Assembly (NCBI GenBank): GCA_017465145.1
Contig: JAFTWU010000016.1
Location: 1 to 64,000, forward strand
DNA length: 64,000 nucleotides
Reading direction: 5' to 3'
From: Clostridia bacterium
GTDB taxonomy: Bacteria; Bacillota; Clostridia; Christensenellales; Borkfalkiaceae
Each line of letters starts with the position of its first letter. Position 1 is the first letter of the stretch. Below, piece after piece: positions 1,753-50,242 of the stretch. The position numbers and the translations under genes are program-made. The notes beneath the pieces are model-generated. The model worked only from the letters and a program-made list of their open reading frames with translations, had not been told where the DNA came from and did not search any database.

Positions 1753-4095
1753 ATGAAAAGGTTTGCACTAGCAGGCAACCCTAATAGCGGTAAAACAACG
1801 TTATTTAATATATTAACCGGTTCAACCGCCCACGTTGGCAACTGGCCGGGGGTTACCGTAGACAAAAGGGAAGGGACTTATAAGAAACTTGATGAACCCG
1901 TATCTATCGTAGATTTACCGGGCATCTATTCATTATCTCCTTATACCCCAGAAGAAGTTGTTTCCAGGAACTATATTTTAGATGAAAAACCAGACTGCGT
2001 TATAAATATAGTCGATTCTACTAACCTAGAACGTAACCTATACTTAACCACGCAAGTTTTAGAAATGGACGTTCCCGTAGTTATCGCGCTTAATATGATA
2101 GATATGCTTGAAAAACAAGGCGATAAGATTAACGCGGAAGAGTTGGAAAAACGCCTTGGCGTACCCGTAGTGGAAATTTCCGCACTTAAGGGCACGGGCG
2201 TAGACGAAGTTATGCAAAGGGCTTATAAAGCTTGCGAAAGCGCTAGAAAGGGCACTACCGTTTTAGAAAACTGTGAACTTTTCCACCTTATTCGCGACGT
2301 AAGAATAGCACTTCAAGGTCAAAAGATAGATAACCCCTTATTCCACGCAATCAAACTTGTGGAAAACGACGAAATAGAAGTTAAAATGCACCCTGAGACA
2401 ATCGGTATGGTAGAAGAGTTTAAGAAAACCTTCACTAACGACCTATTCGGCACCGATTTTGAATGTTTGGTTGCAGATGCAAGATATAAATATATATCGG
2501 ATAACTATTCGCCACTACTTAACAAAAAGCAAAAGGGCATAAAGCACTCTCATTCAGATAAAATCGACAAAGTTTTAACGAATAAATGGGCGGGTATTCC
2601 CATATTCTTGGTAATACTTTTTGCAATGTTCCACCTAACGTTTGGGGAAGACTTTTTATACCTTGGTACAATCTTTAATTTACCCGAACTTAATATGGCA
2701 GAAGGCATTGGCAGAGATTTAGTCGCCTGTTTTTACGACGGTGCAATATTCTCTCCGGGCGTAGTTCTATTTAATTTAATGGACCTTTTAACGTCAACAA
2801 TTTTCGGTGCTATAACCGGTCTTATTGAAAGTTGGGGTGCATCCGCAGCCGTTTCAGGCTTAATCGGTAGCGTGTTTGACGGTATCGGCGGTGTGCTCAG
2901 TTTCGTTCCCCAAGTAGTGTTCTTGCTTTTGTTACTTGCAATTTTAGAAGATACGGGGTATATGGCGCGCGTTGCCTTTATTTTAGATAGAATCTTTAGA
3001 AGATTCGGTGTTTCGGGCAGAGCGTTTATCCCTATGGTAATGGGATTTGGTTGTTCAGTACCCGCAATCGTAAATACTAGAACGCTTGCTGATGAACGTG
3101 AACGTACCTTGACTATCCGTTCAATTCCTTTCTTCACTTGCGGTGCAAAACTACCCATCTTGCTTGCCGTTTCAGGTGCTATCGTTACGGCGTTTGGCAT
3201 AGGAAATGCGGATATTATAACGTACTCTATGTACGTAATAGGCGTGCTTGTTGCAGCGGTTACTATAATTTTAATGCGCTCTACGACACAACGCGGTGAA
3301 GTTGCTCCCTTTATTATGGAACTTCCCGAATATCGTTTACCACGTCTTAAAAGTTTAGCCGTTCTTTTATGGGATAAGGCAAAACACTATATTCAAAAGG
3401 TTTTCACGGTAATACTAGCGTCAAGTATTTTGGTTTGGTTCTTATCTAACTTCGGTTGGGATTGGAAAATTTGCGAAATCGACCAGTCGATTTTAGCGTC
3501 TATCGGTAAGTTTATTCAACCTATATTTACGCCACTTGGCTTTGGCAGTCAACTTGGCAGTTTCGGTTGGGTATTTGCCGTAGCGGCAATACTTGGTCTT
3601 ATCGCAAAAGAAAACGTTCTTGCGGCTTTCTTAACTATCGCATCAGTTCTTATGGGTATGGTTGCTAGTGGCGACTTAACTTGGGTTAACCCCGAAGTAT
3701 TATCACCAGAAGTTTTAGCCGAACTTGAAACGCTTATTGCAAGTGGCGAATTTAGTGAAAACGGTTACGAAGTTATCGCTATGATAGCCGCAACGGGTAT
3801 CGATTGGCCGGGGTTAATATCCTTTATAGTGTTCAATATGACGACTATCCCGTGCTTTGCTGCGGTTGCTGCTGCTAGGGGCGAACTTGGTAAGGGCAAA
3901 AAGACCACTTTAACTATACTTTTCTGGCTTGCAACGTCTTTTGTGGTAAGTGCTATAACTTACGTAATTTGCACGATGATAGCAACTTGGTCGCTTTGGT
4001 CAATAATCGTAAGCGCGGTAATAGTAGTTCTTGCGGTTGCAAGCGTGTTTATAATTCGCGCATATAATAAAAAACATCCTATTAAATCTAATTAA
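1753..4095 (+). CDS. feoB: Ferrous iron transport protein B
   Basis: 780 residues, the usual FeoB length. The N-terminal G domain has G1 GNPNSGKT (residues 8-15), the switch region VGNWPGVTVD, G3 DLPG (54-57) and G4 NMID (114-117). A helical linker leads to the membrane domain with two Gate-type repeats, including the region GFGCSVPAI and the later AKENVLAAFL. FeoB imports Fe2+ across the cytoplasmic membrane, typical of anaerobes. It lies between feoA, which it abuts, and a small Cys-rich protein. Transcription is expected from 1427-1455 under possible TetR control. Confidence 0.98.
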   Translation: MKRFALAGNPNSGKTTLFNILTGSTAHVGNWPGVTVDKREGTYKKLDEPVSIVDLPGIYSLSPYTPEEVVSRNYILDEKPDCVINIVDSTNLERNLYLTTQVLEMDVPVVIALNMIDMLEKQGDKINAEELEKRLGVPVVEISALKGTGVDEVMQRAYKACESARKGTTVLENCELFHLIRDVRIALQGQKIDNPLFHAIKLVENDEIEVKMHPETIGMVEEFKKTFTNDLFGTDFECLVADARYKYISDNYSPLLNKKQKGIKHSHSDKIDKVLTNKWAGIPIFLVILFAMFHLTFGEDFLYLGTIFNLPELNMAEGIGRDLVACFYDGAIFSPGVVLFNLMDLLTSTIFGAITGLIESWGASAAVSGLIGSVFDGIGGVLSFVPQVVFLLLLLAILEDTGYMARVAFILDRIFRRFGVSGRAFIPMVMGFGCSVPAIVNTRTLADERERTLTIRSIPFFTCGAKLPILLAVSGAIVTAFGIGNADIITYSMYVIGVLVAAVTIILMRSTTQRGEVAPFIMELPEYRLPRLKSLAVLLWDKAKHYIQKVFTVILASSILVWFLSNFGWDWKICEIDQSILASIGKFIQPIFTPLGFGSQLGSFGWVFAVAAILGLIAKENVLAAFLTIASVLMGMVASGDLTWVNPEVLSPEVLAELETLIASGEFSENGYEVIAMIAATGIDWPGLISFIVFNMTTIPCFAAVAAARGELGKGKKTTLTILFWLATSFVVSAITYVICTMIATWSLWSIIVSAVIVVLAVASVFIIRAYNKKHPIKSN

Positions 4096-4106
4096 AGGAA
4101 AATCTT

Positions 4107-4301
4107 ATGTTAAATCTTTTACTTTCAGGCAACGTTAATATTATAAATATCATAATTCCCGTTGCCGCAGTTCTAATCGTTGTAGCCGTAGCTCTTTTTT
4201 CAATAATAAATAAAAAGAAAGGCAAAAGCGGTTGTGGTTGCGGGTGCGACTGCTCAAAATGTAGCGGTTGCGCTAGCAGTAACGAAAAAGAAGAAAAGTA
4301 A
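4107..4301 (+). CDS. FeoB-associated Cys-rich membrane protein
   Basis: 64 residues: one N-terminal membrane helix (about residues 8-31, IINIIIPVAAVLIVVAVALF), a basic KKKGK boundary, then a short tail with seven Cys (CGCGCDCSKCSGC). This architecture belongs to the small proteins that follow feoB in many Firmicutes and are thought to bind or hand over metal. It starts 11 bases after feoB with AGGAAA as ribosome site and ends the operon before a strong terminator. Confidence 0.9.
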   Translation: MLNLLLSGNVNIINIIIPVAAVLIVVAVALFSIINKKKGKSGCGCGCDCSKCSGCASSNEKEEK

Positions 4302-4314
4302 AATTTATTAAATT

Positions 4315-4343
4315 TGCGCTCTAAAAACTAGGGCGCATTTTTT
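4315..4343 (+). terminator. Intrinsic terminator of the feo operon
   Basis: A 9-bp stem (4315-4323 with 4329-4337) with loop AAAAC is followed by six T. Confidence 0.9.
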
Positions 4344-4351
4344 CTAAATCG

Positions 4352-4380
4352 TTGAAGATTTATTTTTATTGTGGTACAAT
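4352..4380 (+). promoter_or_regulatory. Sigma-A promoter of copA
   Basis: TTGAAG (4352-4357), 17-base spacer, TACAAT (4375-4380), 25 bases before the ATG. No CopY-like operator (TACANNTGTA) is visible. Confidence 0.75.
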
Positions 4381-4405
4381 ATTATAAGTAGATAAGGAAA
4401 TAACT

Positions 4406-6775
4406 ATGGTAAAAAAATATTCGGTTGGTGGAATGTCGTGCTCTAATTGTGCACTTGGCATTGAAAAGGTTGTAAGTTTATTAAACGGCGTGCATAAAGT
4501 AAGCGTTGCGCTTATGGAAAAAAGCATGACCGTTGATTTCGACAACGAAAAAATATCTGAAAACGATATTATTTTAGCCGTTAAAAAGATAGGCTATACC
4601 GTTACTGAATATAAACAGCAAACGGAAAAATCAAAAAAGAATTTAGATGCTGAAAGGCTTAGAAAACGCTTTTTATTATCTATCGTTTTTATGTTACCGC
4701 TTATGTGGTTTTCAATGGGTAAGATGATTTCTCTTCCCGTGCCAAACGACACTATTTCGCTATCAATTCAACTTGTGCTAGCCAGTATAGTTATGGTAAT
4801 TAACCGCTCGTTTTTTATTAACGGAACGCGCGCGGTATTTCGCGGTATGGCAAATATGGATACGCTGGTATCTCTTGGTTCTATTTCGGCGTTTATCTTT
4901 AGCGTTGTAACTTATATCGTAACGTTAACTAACGGGACAACCGCCCACGTCTTTTTCGAAGCGTCCGCAATGGTATTAACCCTTGTAACGCTAGGTAAAT
5001 GGCTAGAAGAACTTTCTAAAAAGCGCACGGGTAAAGAAGTAGAACGACTTGCGTCTTTAATGCCTGATACCGCAACGATAATAGAAAACGGTGTGGAAAA
5101 GGTGGTAAATCTTTCTAGTATAAAGGTTGGCGACCTTGTGGTGTTTAAGGCGGGCGATTACGTTTGTGTTGACGGCGTTATCACTTACGGCGAAGGCGGT
5201 CTAGATAAATCTGCTTTGACGGGCGAAAGTATGCCCGTTGAAGTGTTTACGGGCGACAACGTTATATCGGGCAGTATCGTGCGCACGGGCTATATTCAAG
5301 TTAAAGCGGAGAAGGTGGGTGAAGATACCGTCTTTTCGGGTATTGTAAAAATAGTAAAAGAAGCGGGCTCTAGTAAAGCCCCCGTCCAAAAATTTGCCGA
5401 TAAGGTTGCAGGGGTATTCGTACCCGTAGTTACGGCTATTGCGCTAGTTACCTTCGTGCTTTGGTGGGCGCTTGGCGGTGAACTTTACAAGGCGTTTAAC
5501 TTTGCAATAAGCGTTCTTGTCGTATCTTGTCCTTGTGCGCTAGGTCTTGCAACGCCCGTTGCGGTTATGGCGGCTACGGGAAAGGGCGCGTCTATGGGCG
5601 TTTTATATAAAGACGCAACCGCTTTGCAAAACGCAAGCAGGGTAAACTGTATTTTGCTTGATAAAACGGCAACTCTAACCGAAGGTAAACCAAGCGTAGT
5701 AAATTATAAAAATCTTTCTTACCGCGCAGATAGTGAAATATTTAGTATCGTAAGCGCGCTAGAGGGTCTATCTAACCACCCGCTAGCAAAACCTTTAATA
5801 GATTATTGCGGAACTTCTAACGCTAAAGTGGAAAACTTTTCATCGGTAACGGGCAAGGGGATAAGTGGCACGATAGACGGCGTAACTTATACTCTTGGCA
5901 GAATAGAAAATTTAGATGAAATCCCTAAAGAATTTGACGGTAACACGGTAGTAGCCCTTTCAAACGGCTATTCAAATATGGCTATTTTTGGACTTTTTGA
6001 CCTTTTGAAAAAAGACGCCGTTGCAACAATTAGCGCGCTTAATAAAAAAGGTATAAAAACGGTAATGATAACGGGTGATAATGAAGCCGTTGCAAAGAAA
6101 ATTTGCATGCAAGCGGGCATTGCGGAATATCGCGCCAACGTTATGCCAGAAGATAAGCAATCGGCAGTTTTAGATTATAAAAAACAAGGCTATTTCGTTG
6201 CTATGGCAGGGGACGGAATTAACGATAGCCCCGCCTTAAAAGAAGCGGATATCGGTATAGCGATGGGTAGCGGAACGGATATTGCAATAGAGAGTGCCGA
6301 TATCGTTTTAACGGGTGAAAGTTTTTCTACGCTATCTCACGTTCTAGGCGTTAGCAAAAAGGCTGTAAAGGTAATTAAAGGCAATCTTTTCTGGGCGTTT
6401 ATCTATAACGTTTTGGCAATTCCTATCGCGGCGGGGGCGCTATCTTTCATAAACGTTATCTTCACACCCACACTTGCATCGCTGTGTATGTCTATAAGTT
6501 CACTATTCGTGGTAACTAACGCTTTGACTATAAGAACGTATAAAGGCAAGCAAAATTTAGCCGATAGCGAAAAAATTATCGTTAATATTAAAGGTATGAT
6601 GTGCAACCATTGTAAAGGCAAGGTAGAGAGTGCTTTGCTTTCGCTTATGGGGGTAGAAAATGTTGAAGTTAACCTTAAAAAAGGCACGGCAATAATTTCG
6701 GGCAACACAACGGATACTGCAATAAACACAGCCGTTGAAAACGCCGGCTTTACGGTAACGAAAATTAAAAGATAA
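4406..6775 (+). CDS. copA: Copper-type P1B ATPase with N- and C-terminal metal-binding domains
   Basis: 789 residues. N-terminal heavy-metal-associated (HMA) domain with GGMSCSNC (C12, C15); actuator motif LTGESMPVE; metal-site helix SCPCALG (C375-P-C377); phosphorylation motif at D419; the SNHPLA region; and the hinge GDGINDSPAL. CPC and HMA CxxC motifs point to Cu(+) export. There are two oddities. The normally invariant DKTGT reads DKTAT (codon gca at 5669-5671). A second HMA domain with GMMCNHC (C733, C736) is fused at the C-terminus, like a built-in CopZ chaperone. It is monocistronic between its own promoter and terminator. Cu specificity is inferred from motifs. Confidence 0.93.
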   Translation: MVKKYSVGGMSCSNCALGIEKVVSLLNGVHKVSVALMEKSMTVDFDNEKISENDIILAVKKIGYTVTEYKQQTEKSKKNLDAERLRKRFLLSIVFMLPLMWFSMGKMISLPVPNDTISLSIQLVLASIVMVINRSFFINGTRAVFRGMANMDTLVSLGSISAFIFSVVTYIVTLTNGTTAHVFFEASAMVLTLVTLGKWLEELSKKRTGKEVERLASLMPDTATIIENGVEKVVNLSSIKVGDLVVFKAGDYVCVDGVITYGEGGLDKSALTGESMPVEVFTGDNVISGSIVRTGYIQVKAEKVGEDTVFSGIVKIVKEAGSSKAPVQKFADKVAGVFVPVVTAIALVTFVLWWALGGELYKAFNFAISVLVVSCPCALGLATPVAVMAATGKGASMGVLYKDATALQNASRVNCILLDKTATLTEGKPSVVNYKNLSYRADSEIFSIVSALEGLSNHPLAKPLIDYCGTSNAKVENFSSVTGKGISGTIDGVTYTLGRIENLDEIPKEFDGNTVVALSNGYSNMAIFGLFDLLKKDAVATISALNKKGIKTVMITGDNEAVAKKICMQAGIAEYRANVMPEDKQSAVLDYKKQGYFVAMAGDGINDSPALKEADIGIAMGSGTDIAIESADIVLTGESFSTLSHVLGVSKKAVKVIKGNLFWAFIYNVLAIPIAAGALSFINVIFTPTLASLCMSISSLFVVTNALTIRTYKGKQNLADSEKIIVNIKGMMCNHCKGKVESALLSLMGVENVEVNLKKGTAIISGNTTDTAINTAVENAGFTVTKIKR

Positions 6776-47267: not shown

Positions 47268-47300
47268 ACCAATAAAGCAGGTCTTTCATTTGTAATATAA
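47268..47300 (+). promoter_or_regulatory. Putative ECF-sigma autoregulated promoter (site A)
   Basis: ACCAATAAA (47268-47276), 13 bases, TTGTAATATAA (47290-47300), then CTGAAA. The same two blocks with the same spacing occur at 49108-49140. It lies 43 bases before the sigma gene, behind an A/T tract. An 11-bp inverted repeat CAGGTCTTTCA/TGAAAGGCCTG overlaps the site. Confidence 0.7.
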
Positions 47301-47342: not shown

Positions 47343-47855
47343 ATGAAACTTGACTCATTTATTGAACAATTTAAGATAAACGATTATCGCCGATTCGACG
47401 AATTTTACGCGCTAACTTCTAAGAACGTGTATTTCACCGCGCTTGGCATTTTAAAAGATAAAGCCCTAGCGGAAGATATTATGCAAGAAACTTTCGTTTC
47501 GTTTTTAGAAAACGTGGAAAATATCCGCCCGAACGAAAACGTTAACGCCTATTTAAGCGTTATAGCGCGCAACAAAAGTATAAATTTATACAATAAAAAC
47601 AAGCGCGTGGAATACGGCGAAGATAACCTTATTAAAGTTAAAGTTGACGGCAACTTTGATAGCGGTGGGGTAGAAGAAATATTAAACCTTTTACCAAACG
47701 CCGACGATAGAGAAATTATAACTTATCACGTAGTTTTGGGTTATAAATTTAACGAAATTGCAAAGATATTAAATAAACCCCTTGGTACTGTGCTTTGGAA
47801 GTACAACAGAGCAATGAAACTTTTACAAACCAGGGTAGGAGATTTGTATGAATAA
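47343..47855 (+). CDS. ECF-type (sigma-70 family) RNA polymerase sigma factor
   Basis: 170 residues. Region 2 includes YFTALGILKDKALAEDIMQETFVSFLENV, and region 4 ends with LGYKFNEIAKILNKPLGTVLWKYNRAMKLL. There is no region 1 or 3, as in ECF sigmas. The ATG at 47343 has an AAGGAAG site; the longer TTG frame does not. The gene overlaps the next one by 8 bases, the usual sigma/anti-sigma arrangement. The promoter at 47268-47300 repeats ahead of a lipoprotein at 49172, so it probably reads both. Confidence 0.9.
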   Translation: MKLDSFIEQFKINDYRRFDEFYALTSKNVYFTALGILKDKALAEDIMQETFVSFLENVENIRPNENVNAYLSVIARNKSINLYNKNKRVEYGEDNLIKVKVDGNFDSGGVEEILNLLPNADDREIITYHVVLGYKFNEIAKILNKPLGTVLWKYNRAMKLLQTRVGDLYE

Positions 47856-48963
47856 AAAACAAATTAAAAACCTTTTACAACAAAAAGCGGAAAAAACGCA
47901 AGTAAAAGATTGTACTAACGAAATTTTATCAAAAACTCATCATACCGCAGTACACGGCGACGTTGCCGTGCAAAATAGCGGTGGTGCGGGTGCAATAGCG
48001 CTAAAGCGTAAGCCTTGGCTATATATGGTGTGCGTGGCGTTAGTTCTTGCAATTACCGTTGCGGTTATCCCTTGGAGCACGATTTTTGGTAAAACCCCGT
48101 CTGGATTAGCGGTTGGCGAAACCGAACAAGTAATGTCCAAAGAAATGATTGCCCTAGGTAACCTTATAACTACTACAGCAGACAGTCAGGCGCGCTTTTT
48201 CAGTAACGATGGCGAAGACGGTGAAGGTGGTGGTGGCGGAAACGGTGGCGAAAATCCAAATCCCCCAGCGCCAATAGGTAACGGATTTTTAACGGGTAGA
48301 GACGATTTGGTTAAAGAAATTAACCACTATTTATTAACGGGCAACGCCCTTGTTGAACAAGATAATATCCAACTACAACTTGTTGAAAATACCGATGAAA
48401 ATTATTTAGAGTATAAATATAAACTTACCGCAAGTTATAAAGACGGCAAAGAATACGGCATAAGTTACGTTGCTTATTATAACACTGTAGAAGAAAGTGA
48501 AGAAGAAGTTGAAATTGCAGGTATTATCATTATTGATGAAACTCCCTATCAATTTGAATGTGAAAAAGAAACCGATGGGGAAGAAGTAGAACTAGAATTA
48601 AAACTTATCACGGGTGAAAATTCTTATATAATCGCATCAAACGAAATAGATACCGAAGAAACGGAATTTACAATTACTTTTTATGCGTTTGATATCGCGC
48701 TAAACGGCGCAACTATCGAAGTGGAAACGGATGGTGAAGATAAAAAGGTTACCATAACCGTAGAAGATTATATTTTTAGCGTAAGCAGAACATATAAGTT
48801 CTTTTTTAGAGATGAAGTTATTGACTGTGAATACGGTTTTGAACTTCCAGGTTTTGAAAACGAAAATAGATTTTCTATTCACGTTCATAAGGATAAATAC
48901 ACCTATTTGTTTGGCGATAGCCACTCAATAGACCACGACAAAATCCCCGGTAGAAGAAAATAA
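47848..48963 (+). CDS. Single-pass membrane protein, probable anti-sigma factor with extracytoplasmic sensor domain
   Basis: 371 residues. The cytosolic N-terminus (about 1-53) is followed by one membrane helix (about 54-75, WLYMVCVALVLAITVAVIPW), a Gly/Glu/Asn-rich linker and a beta-rich extracytoplasmic domain (about 150-340). No canonical zinc-binding HxxxCxxC motif is present, although the N-terminus contains one Cys and two adjacent His. The domain around EIAGIIIIDETPYQFECEKETDGEE aligns with the lipoprotein downstream. It overlaps the sigma gene by 8 bases with an AGGAG site. The anti-sigma role is inferred from context and topology. Confidence 0.72.
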   Translation: MNKKQIKNLLQQKAEKTQVKDCTNEILSKTHHTAVHGDVAVQNSGGAGAIALKRKPWLYMVCVALVLAITVAVIPWSTIFGKTPSGLAVGETEQVMSKEMIALGNLITTTADSQARFFSNDGEDGEGGGGGNGGENPNPPAPIGNGFLTGRDDLVKEINHYLLTGNALVEQDNIQLQLVENTDENYLEYKYKLTASYKDGKEYGISYVAYYNTVEESEEEVEIAGIIIIDETPYQFECEKETDGEEVELELKLITGENSYIIASNEIDTEETEFTITFYAFDIALNGATIEVETDGEDKKVTITVEDYIFSVSRTYKFFFRDEVIDCEYGFELPGFENENRFSIHVHKDKYTYLFGDSHSIDHDKIPGRRK

Positions 48964-49053
48964 ATTTTATTAAACAGGCAATTAAAAAATTCGTTTAGTA
49001 TTATGCTAGATTAATTTATTATTGCCTTGCCTAATACCAAATCTTAACGTATA

Positions 49054-49089
49054 AAAATATCCCCACAAAAGGTTGGGGATATTTTTTTT
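49054..49089 (+). terminator. Intrinsic terminator of the sigma operon
   Basis: An 11-bp stem (49054-49064 with 49075-49085) with a long T run. It separates the sigma operon from the lipoprotein. Confidence 0.92.
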
Positions 49090-49107
49090 GAAAAAAATTT
49101 TAAAATT

Positions 49108-49140
49108 ACCAATAAAACGCTTTTTTGGTTTGTAATATAA
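49108..49140 (+). promoter_or_regulatory. Putative ECF-sigma promoter of the lipoprotein (site B)
   Basis: ACCAATAAA (49108-49116), 13 bases, TTGTAATATAA (49130-49140), then GTGAAA. It matches site A in both blocks and spacing while the 13-base spacer is unrelated. Confidence 0.72.
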
Positions 49141-49171
49141 GTGAAAACAAAAATAAATAGGGAGAAAAACT

Positions 49172-50044
49172 ATGAAAAACAATCTACTTAAAAAATTAAC
49201 GGCAATAATTCTCTCACTTGTTTTAGTGATAGGCATTGGCGTGATGGTTTCCGCTTGTAAGCCTAAAGACGACGGCAACGATATTTCTTTTGAAAGTGCA
49301 ACCGACTATTCGGTAATGGGCGGTATAGGGCTATTAAATGACGGTGGCGCAACCACTCAATCGGTAAAGACTTATGCGACTAGTTATAGTGGCGGAAACA
49401 CTTTAAGTGAAGTTCAAAAGAACGGCATACTTAAAAACCTTGCTTTCGCACAAAATATGGTTAATCAAGACGTTGTGAAAAGCCCCGTAACCGAATCTGA
49501 TAGAGAAGGTTATTCTTTAACTTACACGATAACGGCAGACGGTTTATCTGGTAGTGGTCAAGTATACGTTTTCCATTATAATGAAAATACCACTTTAGAC
49601 GGCGACGTGTTGCTTGAAGGCGTTGTTATCTTCAACGGCGCTGAATATCAAATTATAGGCGAAAAAGAAGTAGACGGCAACGAACAAGAATTCACTTTCA
49701 CTATTAAACTAAACGAATTGGCAAAAGTTGTTGTAGAACACGAAACGGAACTTAACGACAACGAATTCTCTTATGCAATCTACGCTGGTAGCGTTAAGAT
49801 TTACGAATCTTCTTTCGAATATGAAGTTAACGACCTTGGTAACGTAAAGGTTAACTTTGAATTAGAAGTTGGCGAATTTGAAATAGAATACGACTTTGAA
49901 TTCGTTAACGTAGAAGGCGAAGACCTTATTAAGGTTGATATTAACGGCTCTATTCTAAACGTAACTGTATATATTCGCGTTACTGAAGTTGAAGGCGAAC
50001 TAAACTTTGAATTCGTAAGCTTAGACGGCGGTTTGGTAGCATAA
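49172..50044 (+). CDS. Lipoprotein paralogous to the anti-sigma sensor domain
   Basis: 290 residues. Signal peptide with lipobox VSAC (Cys at about residue 29). The mature protein is acidic and beta-rich. The stretch LLEGVVIFNGAEYQIIGEKE and the following DGNEQEFTFTIKL align with the extracytoplasmic domain of the preceding anti-sigma protein (about 120 residues alignable by eye). GGGAG ribosome site. It has its own copy of the sigma promoter and a strong terminator. It is possibly a ligand-binding decoy, a feedback partner or the stress effector of this circuit. I recognise no named family. Confidence 0.75.
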   Translation: MKNNLLKKLTAIILSLVLVIGIGVMVSACKPKDDGNDISFESATDYSVMGGIGLLNDGGATTQSVKTYATSYSGGNTLSEVQKNGILKNLAFAQNMVNQDVVKSPVTESDREGYSLTYTITADGLSGSGQVYVFHYNENTTLDGDVLLEGVVIFNGAEYQIIGEKEVDGNEQEFTFTIKLNELAKVVVEHETELNDNEFSYAIYAGSVKIYESSFEYEVNDLGNVKVNFELEVGEFEIEYDFEFVNVEGEDLIKVDINGSILNVTVYIRVTEVEGELNFEFVSLDGGLVA

Positions 50045-50133
50045 ACTATCGCTAAACATAATACGCGCAGTATATTGCGCAAGTAAAATTAATCACAGAT
50101 GAGTCAACTCATGTAATCATATCCTTTCATCTG

Positions 50134-50163
50134 AAAAAGTCACCAAATTCTTGGTGGCTTTTT
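50134..50163 (+). terminator. Intrinsic terminator of the lipoprotein
   Basis: A 13-bp stem (50134-50146 with 50151-50163) with loop ATTC and T run. A 7-bp stem (CAGATGA/TCATCTG) lies just upstream. Confidence 0.9.
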
Positions 50164-50242
50164 CATTTTGTCGAAGTATGGCAGTTTAAAAATTAAAAAT
50201 AACGCAATATATAAAACCTTTTTAATTTTTTTAGTTTATAAT

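Follow-up and report, generated by a model that had tools for sequence, protein, structure and literature searches.

Genes of the locus

The locus at positions 47,343 to 50,044 of the window, i.e. the 64,000 nucleotides (forward strand) of contig JAFTWU010000016.1 analysed here (Clostridia bacterium, Borkfalkiaceae, a gut bacterium, assembly GCA_017465145.1), is composed of three genes: an extracytoplasmic function (ECF) sigma factor, a one-helix membrane protein which is a candidate for its anti-sigma factor, and a lipoprotein. The outer part of the membrane protein and the mature lipoprotein are homologous, and the sigma operon and the lipoprotein gene are preceded by the same type of promoter. 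The features are the following, all on the + strand:

47269..47300: ECF-type promoter of the sigma operon, CCAATAAA-N12-TTTGTAATATAA (exact pattern search)
47343..47855: ECF sigma factor gene, 170 aa (Pfam Sigma70_r2 1.2e-11, Sigma70_r4_2 2.9e-06)
47848..48963: candidate one-helix membrane anti-sigma factor, 371 aa (overlap with the sigma gene, hydrophobicity, N-terminal motif of the family)
48349..48801: segment of the ectodomain homologous to the lipoprotein, residues 168-318 (BLASTP E 4e-10, shuffle control)
49053..49086: intrinsic terminator between the anti-sigma and lipoprotein genes (fold -16.2 kcal/mol, z -4.1)
49109..49140: ECF-type promoter of the lipoprotein gene, with boxes and spacing identical to those of the sigma promoter (exact pattern search)
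49172..50044: lipoprotein gene, 290 aa (lipobox cysteine at residue 29, mature part a sensor-type domain)
49457..49903: segment of the lipoprotein homologous to the anti-sigma ectodomain, residues 96-244 (BLASTP E 4e-10)
50132..50165: terminator 3' of the lipoprotein gene (terminator scan)

The sigma protein consists of regions 2 and 4 only and matches the ECF superfamily model above its cut-off (2.7e-16). Its gene is overlapped by 8 bp by that of the membrane protein, in which the first strongly hydrophobic segment begins at residue 56; residues 1-55 would thus be cytosolic and the ectodomain would extend from about residue 80 to residue 371. As expected of an anti-sigma factor, this protein adjoins the sigma gene and has a single membrane helix and a presumably cytosolic N-terminus, and the motif in its N-terminal segment is conserved across 22 aligned relatives. 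The lipobox of the lipoprotein is VSAC (residues 26-29), its cysteine being invariant in alignments of 4 and of 22 lipoproteins. The intergenic terminator is the single match of its pattern in the window and was not listed by the consensus terminator scan of the same sequence. Coordinates, Pfam matches, hydrophobicity, lipobox and hairpin together confirm the layout given by a first-pass annotation of this DNA, namely a sigma gene overlapping a one-helix membrane protein and followed behind a terminator by a lipoprotein.

Neither the anti-sigma candidate nor the lipoprotein of the window matches a Pfam family over the cut-off or an NCBIfam model at E up to 1. When 22 anti-sigmas and 22 lipoproteins were compared to Pfam at E <= 0.01, no family matched more than one member, the best hit being an unrelated domain of unknown function (E 7e-4); the NCBIfam scan of the relatives covered the anti-sigmas only.

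Homology of the anti-sigma ectodomain and the lipoprotein

The annotation had aligned the two proteins over about 120 residues, and this is borne out over 152 residues with 27% identity (BLASTP E 4e-10). Profile-profile comparison, which it had proposed as a check, relates the 22 anti-sigmas to the 22 lipoproteins with a probability of 100% (E 9e-69, 280 columns). As glutamate, aspartate, tyrosine and valine are visibly abundant in both proteins, the resemblance could be thought to reflect a shared glutamate- and strand-rich composition only. This explanation has a negligible probability, given the profile-profile result and a Smith-Waterman score of 152, where the best of 2000 full shuffles reached 85 and the best of 2000 local (12-residue) shuffles 100; since none of the shuffles is as good, composition is insufficient to explain the similarity and chance composition was ruled out as its source. 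Within single loci, ectodomain and lipoprotein share 28-57% identity apart from one nearly identical pair (L120, see below), with a median of 39% over 50 pairs, L120 included.

Comparison to solved structures gave no convincing match for the anti-sigma profile (best E 0.13). The matches of the lipoprotein profile (best E 0.0098; with another alignment 0.0076, a histone H2B) were read as chance, because the best chain differs between the two lipoprotein searches. A single-query scan of the genome contigs found no relative.

A promoter shared by the sigma and lipoprotein genes

In the 1.51 Mb genome (G000) exact matches to the pattern CCAATAAA-N12-TTTGTAATATAA are found at two places only, before the sigma operon and before the lipoprotein gene, while the reversed pattern used as control does not occur. 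A shorter form with up to 3 mismatches gave 13 matches, the 2 exact ones included, against 15 for its reversed pattern, so that weaker sites in this genome are indistinguishable from chance. The co-regulation which the annotation had claimed without a motif thus has its common ECF-type promoter, and from this the lipoprotein is probably, as it had supposed, a regulon output of the sigma factor.

When a slightly altered form of the promoter was searched without mismatches in the genus (44 genomes), it was found only in the window genome and in G002, twice in each; these two are also the only ones to match the window anti-sigma by single-sequence search. In G002 (L026) the lipoprotein gene lies at a distance of 2.6 kb, separated by genes which judging from their sequence are of the AraC and MATE types, and the promoter is still present. 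A two-mismatch match in G008 was set aside, as it precedes a gene read as serC. The G002 locus also encodes another one-helix protein which resembles an anti-sigma and has a similar N-terminus (L026:961-1617); its end is 3.2 kb upstream of the circuit. About 1.3 kb upstream of this protein, with one open frame in between, there is a weak match to sigma (G002:C4:2199-2702).

Conservation of the circuit

With a profile built from four lipoproteins, 132 of the 398 genomes of the family were found to encode the domain. The 84 loci examined are the window, three from the genus search and 80 among the best family profile matches, these 80 being chosen by the lipoprotein profile and not by presence of a sigma gene. 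Sigma, anti-sigma and lipoprotein genes occur together in 69 of the 84, in three orders: sigma, anti-sigma, lipoprotein (33), lipoprotein divergent (28) and lipoprotein first (8). The three-gene unit, whose conservation the annotation had suggested following in related genomes, is therefore kept, though not its order. The remaining 15 loci comprise 12 with the lipoprotein only, two with sigma and anti-sigma only and one (L136) with sigma and anti-sigma in one open frame; some of them border on the end of a contig, and the genome G058 contributes two halves, L139 and L140. By its own profile the full-length anti-sigma is present in at least 88 of the 398 genomes, of which at least 86 have one or more further matches.

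Named members include Candidatus Scatosoma, Coproplasma, Borkfalkia, Protoclostridium, Heteroclostridium and Ornithoclostridium; in the NCBI taxonomy Borkfalkia is placed in Christensenellales and Scatosoma in Clostridia incertae sedis. Candidatus Borkfalkia ceftriaxoniphila, which has an entry there, is a relative that can be cultured. Of 297 genomes sampled from the order, belonging to 125 genera, 63 genomes in 33 genera are matched by the lipoprotein profile. Seventeen loci with the domain from other families of the order (L247-L262, L266) were held out for the promoter test; 14 are complete triads, L258 and L259 have the lipoprotein only and L262 has sigma and anti-sigma only. No conserved neighbour able to name a function was found, the largest common family being present in 10 of 67 triads.

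The upstream sequences of sigma (70) and of the lipoprotein (69) were submitted to separate expectation-maximisation (EM) motif searches, and both returned the same bipartite motif, CCAACAAA followed by a TTGTTATATA-like box. Using a regular expression written after this result, the motif is found upstream of sigma in 57 and upstream of the lipoprotein in 58 of the 61 loci with separate units, which are those of the first two gene orders (lipoprotein last or divergent), versus 3 of 3898 control stretches of 260 bases. Where the lipoprotein comes first, the motif is present before sigma in 0 of 8 and before the lipoprotein in 5 of 7 cases, as expected if a single operon starts at the lipoprotein.

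A strict form of the promoter was searched in 40 genomes and gave 41 matches, distributed over 31 of them; the reversed pattern gave none. All but one of the matches are at the circuit: 37 were assigned by script (30 to the lipoprotein, 7 to sigma), and three, checked apart, lie 13, 13 and 33 bases before the start of sigma (G055, G062) or of the lipoprotein (G066). The sole match outside the circuit (G128:C6) is 48 bases before the following gene, whose product has a lipobox-like start and which may hint at proteases as the stress:

L218 (G128), 3658-4965, minus strand: serpin-domain protein (Pfam 1.8e-46)

As judged from these sites, the regulon would be nearly closed on itself, being composed of the sigma operon and the lipoprotein. 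For the held-out loci the letters allowed by the score had been widened after earlier scoring; 10 of the 17 lipoprotein upstream sequences score 15 or more, and the motif is missing in L251, L254, L256 (both lipoproteins), L258, L259, L260 and L261. In one locus (L134, G049:C86:9636-9756) two copies of the strict promoter stand in tandem before one lipoprotein gene.

The same arrangement with an RsgI_M sensor

The window proteins do not match RsgI_M (Pfam PF23750) and so do not belong to the RsgI family as defined by its central domain with the INP motif; in the window genome there is no RsgI_M match at E <= 1e-5. This domain is present in 135 of the 398 family genomes, often as two matches close together. 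In all of the 21 paired loci studied (20 pairs plus G009), a sigma gene, an adjacent RsgI_M protein without lipobox and an RsgI_M lipoprotein are found; as the loci were selected for pairing, the figure shows the nature of the pairs and not their frequency. The lipoprotein is first in 11 and last in 10. The membrane helix of the RsgI_M anti-sigmas was read from printed sequences, and in L238, where both proteins were called lipoproteins by script, the one adjoining sigma was read as the membrane protein. G009, which is of the same genus as the window, has the order lipoprotein, sigma, anti-sigma with RsgI_M in both lipoprotein and anti-sigma, and a two-mismatch variant of the window promoter precedes its RsgI_M lipoprotein. 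A CCAAYAAA box stands before both sigma and lipoprotein in L235 and L237; no box of this type was seen in most of the 21 paired loci.

In a class sample from outside the order most genomes matching RsgI_M have a single match. Among the three close pairs examined there, L264:3104-6276 (G930, another order) has in succession a sigma gene, an anti-sigma with RsgI_M and PepSY, and an anchored RsgI_M and PepSY protein without lipobox, so that the layout is kept with an anchor replacing the lipobox; L265 resembles it but is cut by the contig end, and in L263 no such sigma was found. The RsgI_M lipoproteins of L222-L227 and L231-L233 have NPE or NPH where the anti-sigmas have NPS, a change which may affect self-cleavage.

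Proposed function and alternatives

In the reading we prefer, and to which we give an even chance, the locus is a self-contained ECF circuit whose lipoprotein binds and neutralises the target of the sensor, feedback being a by-product. The membrane protein would hold the sigma factor and expose its outer sensor domain; a stimulus at the sensor would lead to destruction of the anti-sigma by proteolysis and release of sigma, which would then transcribe the operon containing its own gene, together with the lipoprotein gene, from the common type of promoter, the step to which the motif data point. The lipoprotein, a membrane-anchored homologue of the sensor, would bind the same envelope target or attacker and neutralise it, so that the cell would be protected and the signal turned off. 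Sensor and lipoprotein would accordingly act on a common ligand.

Several observations weigh against this reading. The pair of the window is the least alike of the 50 pairs compared (28%). In nine of the 40 genomes searched the strict promoter has no match, and among held-out upstream sequences only 9 of 17 for lipoproteins and 7 of 15 for sigma beat all 20 of their own shuffles. The promoter is absent in L079 even though a sigma of the circuit type is encoded on another contig of the same genome, and in L262 (G513) no lipoprotein accompanies sigma and anti-sigma within the 8.9 kb examined. Lastly, in five of the 69 triads (L069, L078, L102, L113, L122) the protein beside sigma has an RsgI_M ectodomain and the lipoprotein is of the window type; the same combination is seen in L136, L240, L242, L256, L260 and L261. 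In the five triads and L136, sigma, N-terminal segment and lipoprotein are of the window kind. Because such mixed pairs exist, sensor and lipoprotein domains need not match.

Three of the mixed loci have further peculiarities. In L136:6533-8050 (G129) sigma and the RsgI_M anti-sigma form one open frame of 505 aa behind a window-type lipoprotein, which is either a natural fusion or an error of assembly or frame. L242:2266-5234 (G038), from the genus of the window, has sigma, an RsgI_M protein and a window-type lipoprotein in a row, and L256:3600-7887 (G472) has one sigma, an RsgI_M anti-sigma and two window-type lipoproteins in a row.

Exchange of domains is also evident from a tree of ectodomains and lipoproteins (128 rows, 73 lipoproteins and 55 anti-sigmas, rows without the anchor motif being dropped). 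The two labels change 5 times on the tree versus 41.5 in shuffles; the window anti-sigma is on a long branch and its placement is unsure. The sigma factors and N-terminal segments of L120, L092, L070 and L071 are closest to those of the mixed loci L078, L102, L113 and L122, and their ectodomains are of the window type and nested among lipoproteins. In L120:5806-8894 (G298) the DNA of ectodomain and lipoprotein is 99.5% identical over 878 bp, starting soon after the membrane helix, due either to a recent copy or, this being a draft genome, to mis-assembly. The tree and these loci support recombination between sensor and lipoprotein domains, in line with the two having the same target.

Such exchange within one clade is also what would be expected if the lipoprotein contacted the anti-sigma ectodomain and shielded it from the first protease, closing the circuit, the common domain being a pairing surface and not a ligand site; the clustering of the three genes in most loci also fits. 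We consider this explanation rather unlikely, since in the mixed pairs the contact would have to be heterotypic, between an RsgI_M sensor and another lipoprotein domain, and since lipoproteins persist where no circuit-type sigma was found. This is the case in G036, G143 and G144 (89-94% complete) and, less surely, in G029, G140 and G291 (61-81% complete), the sigma matches in G036 and G291 being of the RsgI_M kind or weaker. The promoter is absent before the lipoprotein in all six of these genomes. Where sigma is elsewhere in the genome the promoter is kept in four of four cases (G055, G058, G062, G075), while G188, also with sigma elsewhere, has no motif before its lipoprotein; in L073 (G056) the sequence 5' of the gene is too short to judge. 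As it is retained in genomes where no circuit-type sigma was found, the lipoprotein seems to be useful without the circuit.

These orphan lipoproteins argue against a pure feedback part and favour an effector role of their own, where the annotation had considered a decoy or a signal amplifier. It is accordingly improbable that the lipoprotein is a decoy only, which soaks up the inducing ligand without any protective function, even if such a decoy would agree with the lipoprotein and the sigma operon being almost the sole genes under the promoter. There is a similarly small chance that the sensor is a stand-in substrate reporting export, folding or damage of the lipoprotein, whose envelope function would be a different one. 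In its favour are the orphans and the near-identity in L120, which is what a sensor recently derived from the lipoprotein could look like; alone it does not explain the RsgI_M layout or the mixed pairs.

Relation to known systems

The circuit resembles that of the RsgI-type anti-sigmas (PF23750) in having one helix and an outer sensor, and in relatives of the window bacterium an RsgI_M lipoprotein adjoins these as well; it differs from them in its sensor domain. In the SigI/RsgI biomass sensors of Clostridium thermocellum sensor domains of the anti-sigmas reappear in regulon products, the shared parts being carbohydrate-binding or enzyme modules. The output of the window circuit, in distinction to these, is essentially the sensor domain alone.

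The closest known parallel is found in C. difficile, and it contradicts the statement of the first-pass annotation that no family with this design had been described. According to excerpts of PMC9044953, the csfV operon encodes LbpA, an ortholog of RsiV in which the sigma-binding domain is missing; LbpA binds the inducer lysozyme and confers low-level resistance. The operon also contains pdaV, and dlt is partly under sigma-V. As far as these excerpts describe it, CsfV/RsiV/LbpA has the same elements as the window, i.e. an ECF sigma, a sensing membrane anti-sigma, and a membrane-bound protein related to the sensor but lacking its sigma-binding part. In the window this protein appears, from the sequence, to be under a promoter of the same sigma, and the role proposed here is that described for LbpA beside RsiV. 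The window proteins have no recognisable sequence relation to RsiV/LbpA and no lysozyme-binding domain of the RsiV type (no Pfam or NCBIfam match). Unlike in the csfV operon as excerpted, the sensor copy of the window is preceded by a separate promoter of the same type, with only two exact sites in the genome. By sequence the window system is not a member of the LbpA/RsiV group, while it would work like it. What is new here is an uncatalogued domain, a dedicated pair of promoters, recurrence of the layout with a second sensor domain and the exchange of domains.

We tentatively propose, as possible rather than probable, that a "sensor plus echo" is a general ECF design, in which the dedicated product is a surface-anchored copy of the sensor, at least two unrelated sensor domains are used within one order, and sensor and copy are kept matched by repeated exchange or conversion. 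It would serve as receptor and neutraliser against a specific attacker, possibly a protease, which is suggested because the only strict promoter site found outside the circuit stands before the gene of a serpin lipoprotein.

The regulons of many ECF circuits are long and their signals difficult to identify, whereas here the regulon seems to hold little beyond the copy of the sensor. The signal is therefore probably whatever this easily made domain binds, which reduces the question of the ligand to a pull-down experiment. If the proposal is true, with the layout found around two unrelated sensors here and a third in C. difficile, it would provide readers of genomes with a rule to pair orphan lipoproteins with sensors, and it would represent a general coupling of sensing to neutralisation. 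The relatives of the window bacterium repeatedly rebuild this design, which suggests that sensor and copy act on the same target.

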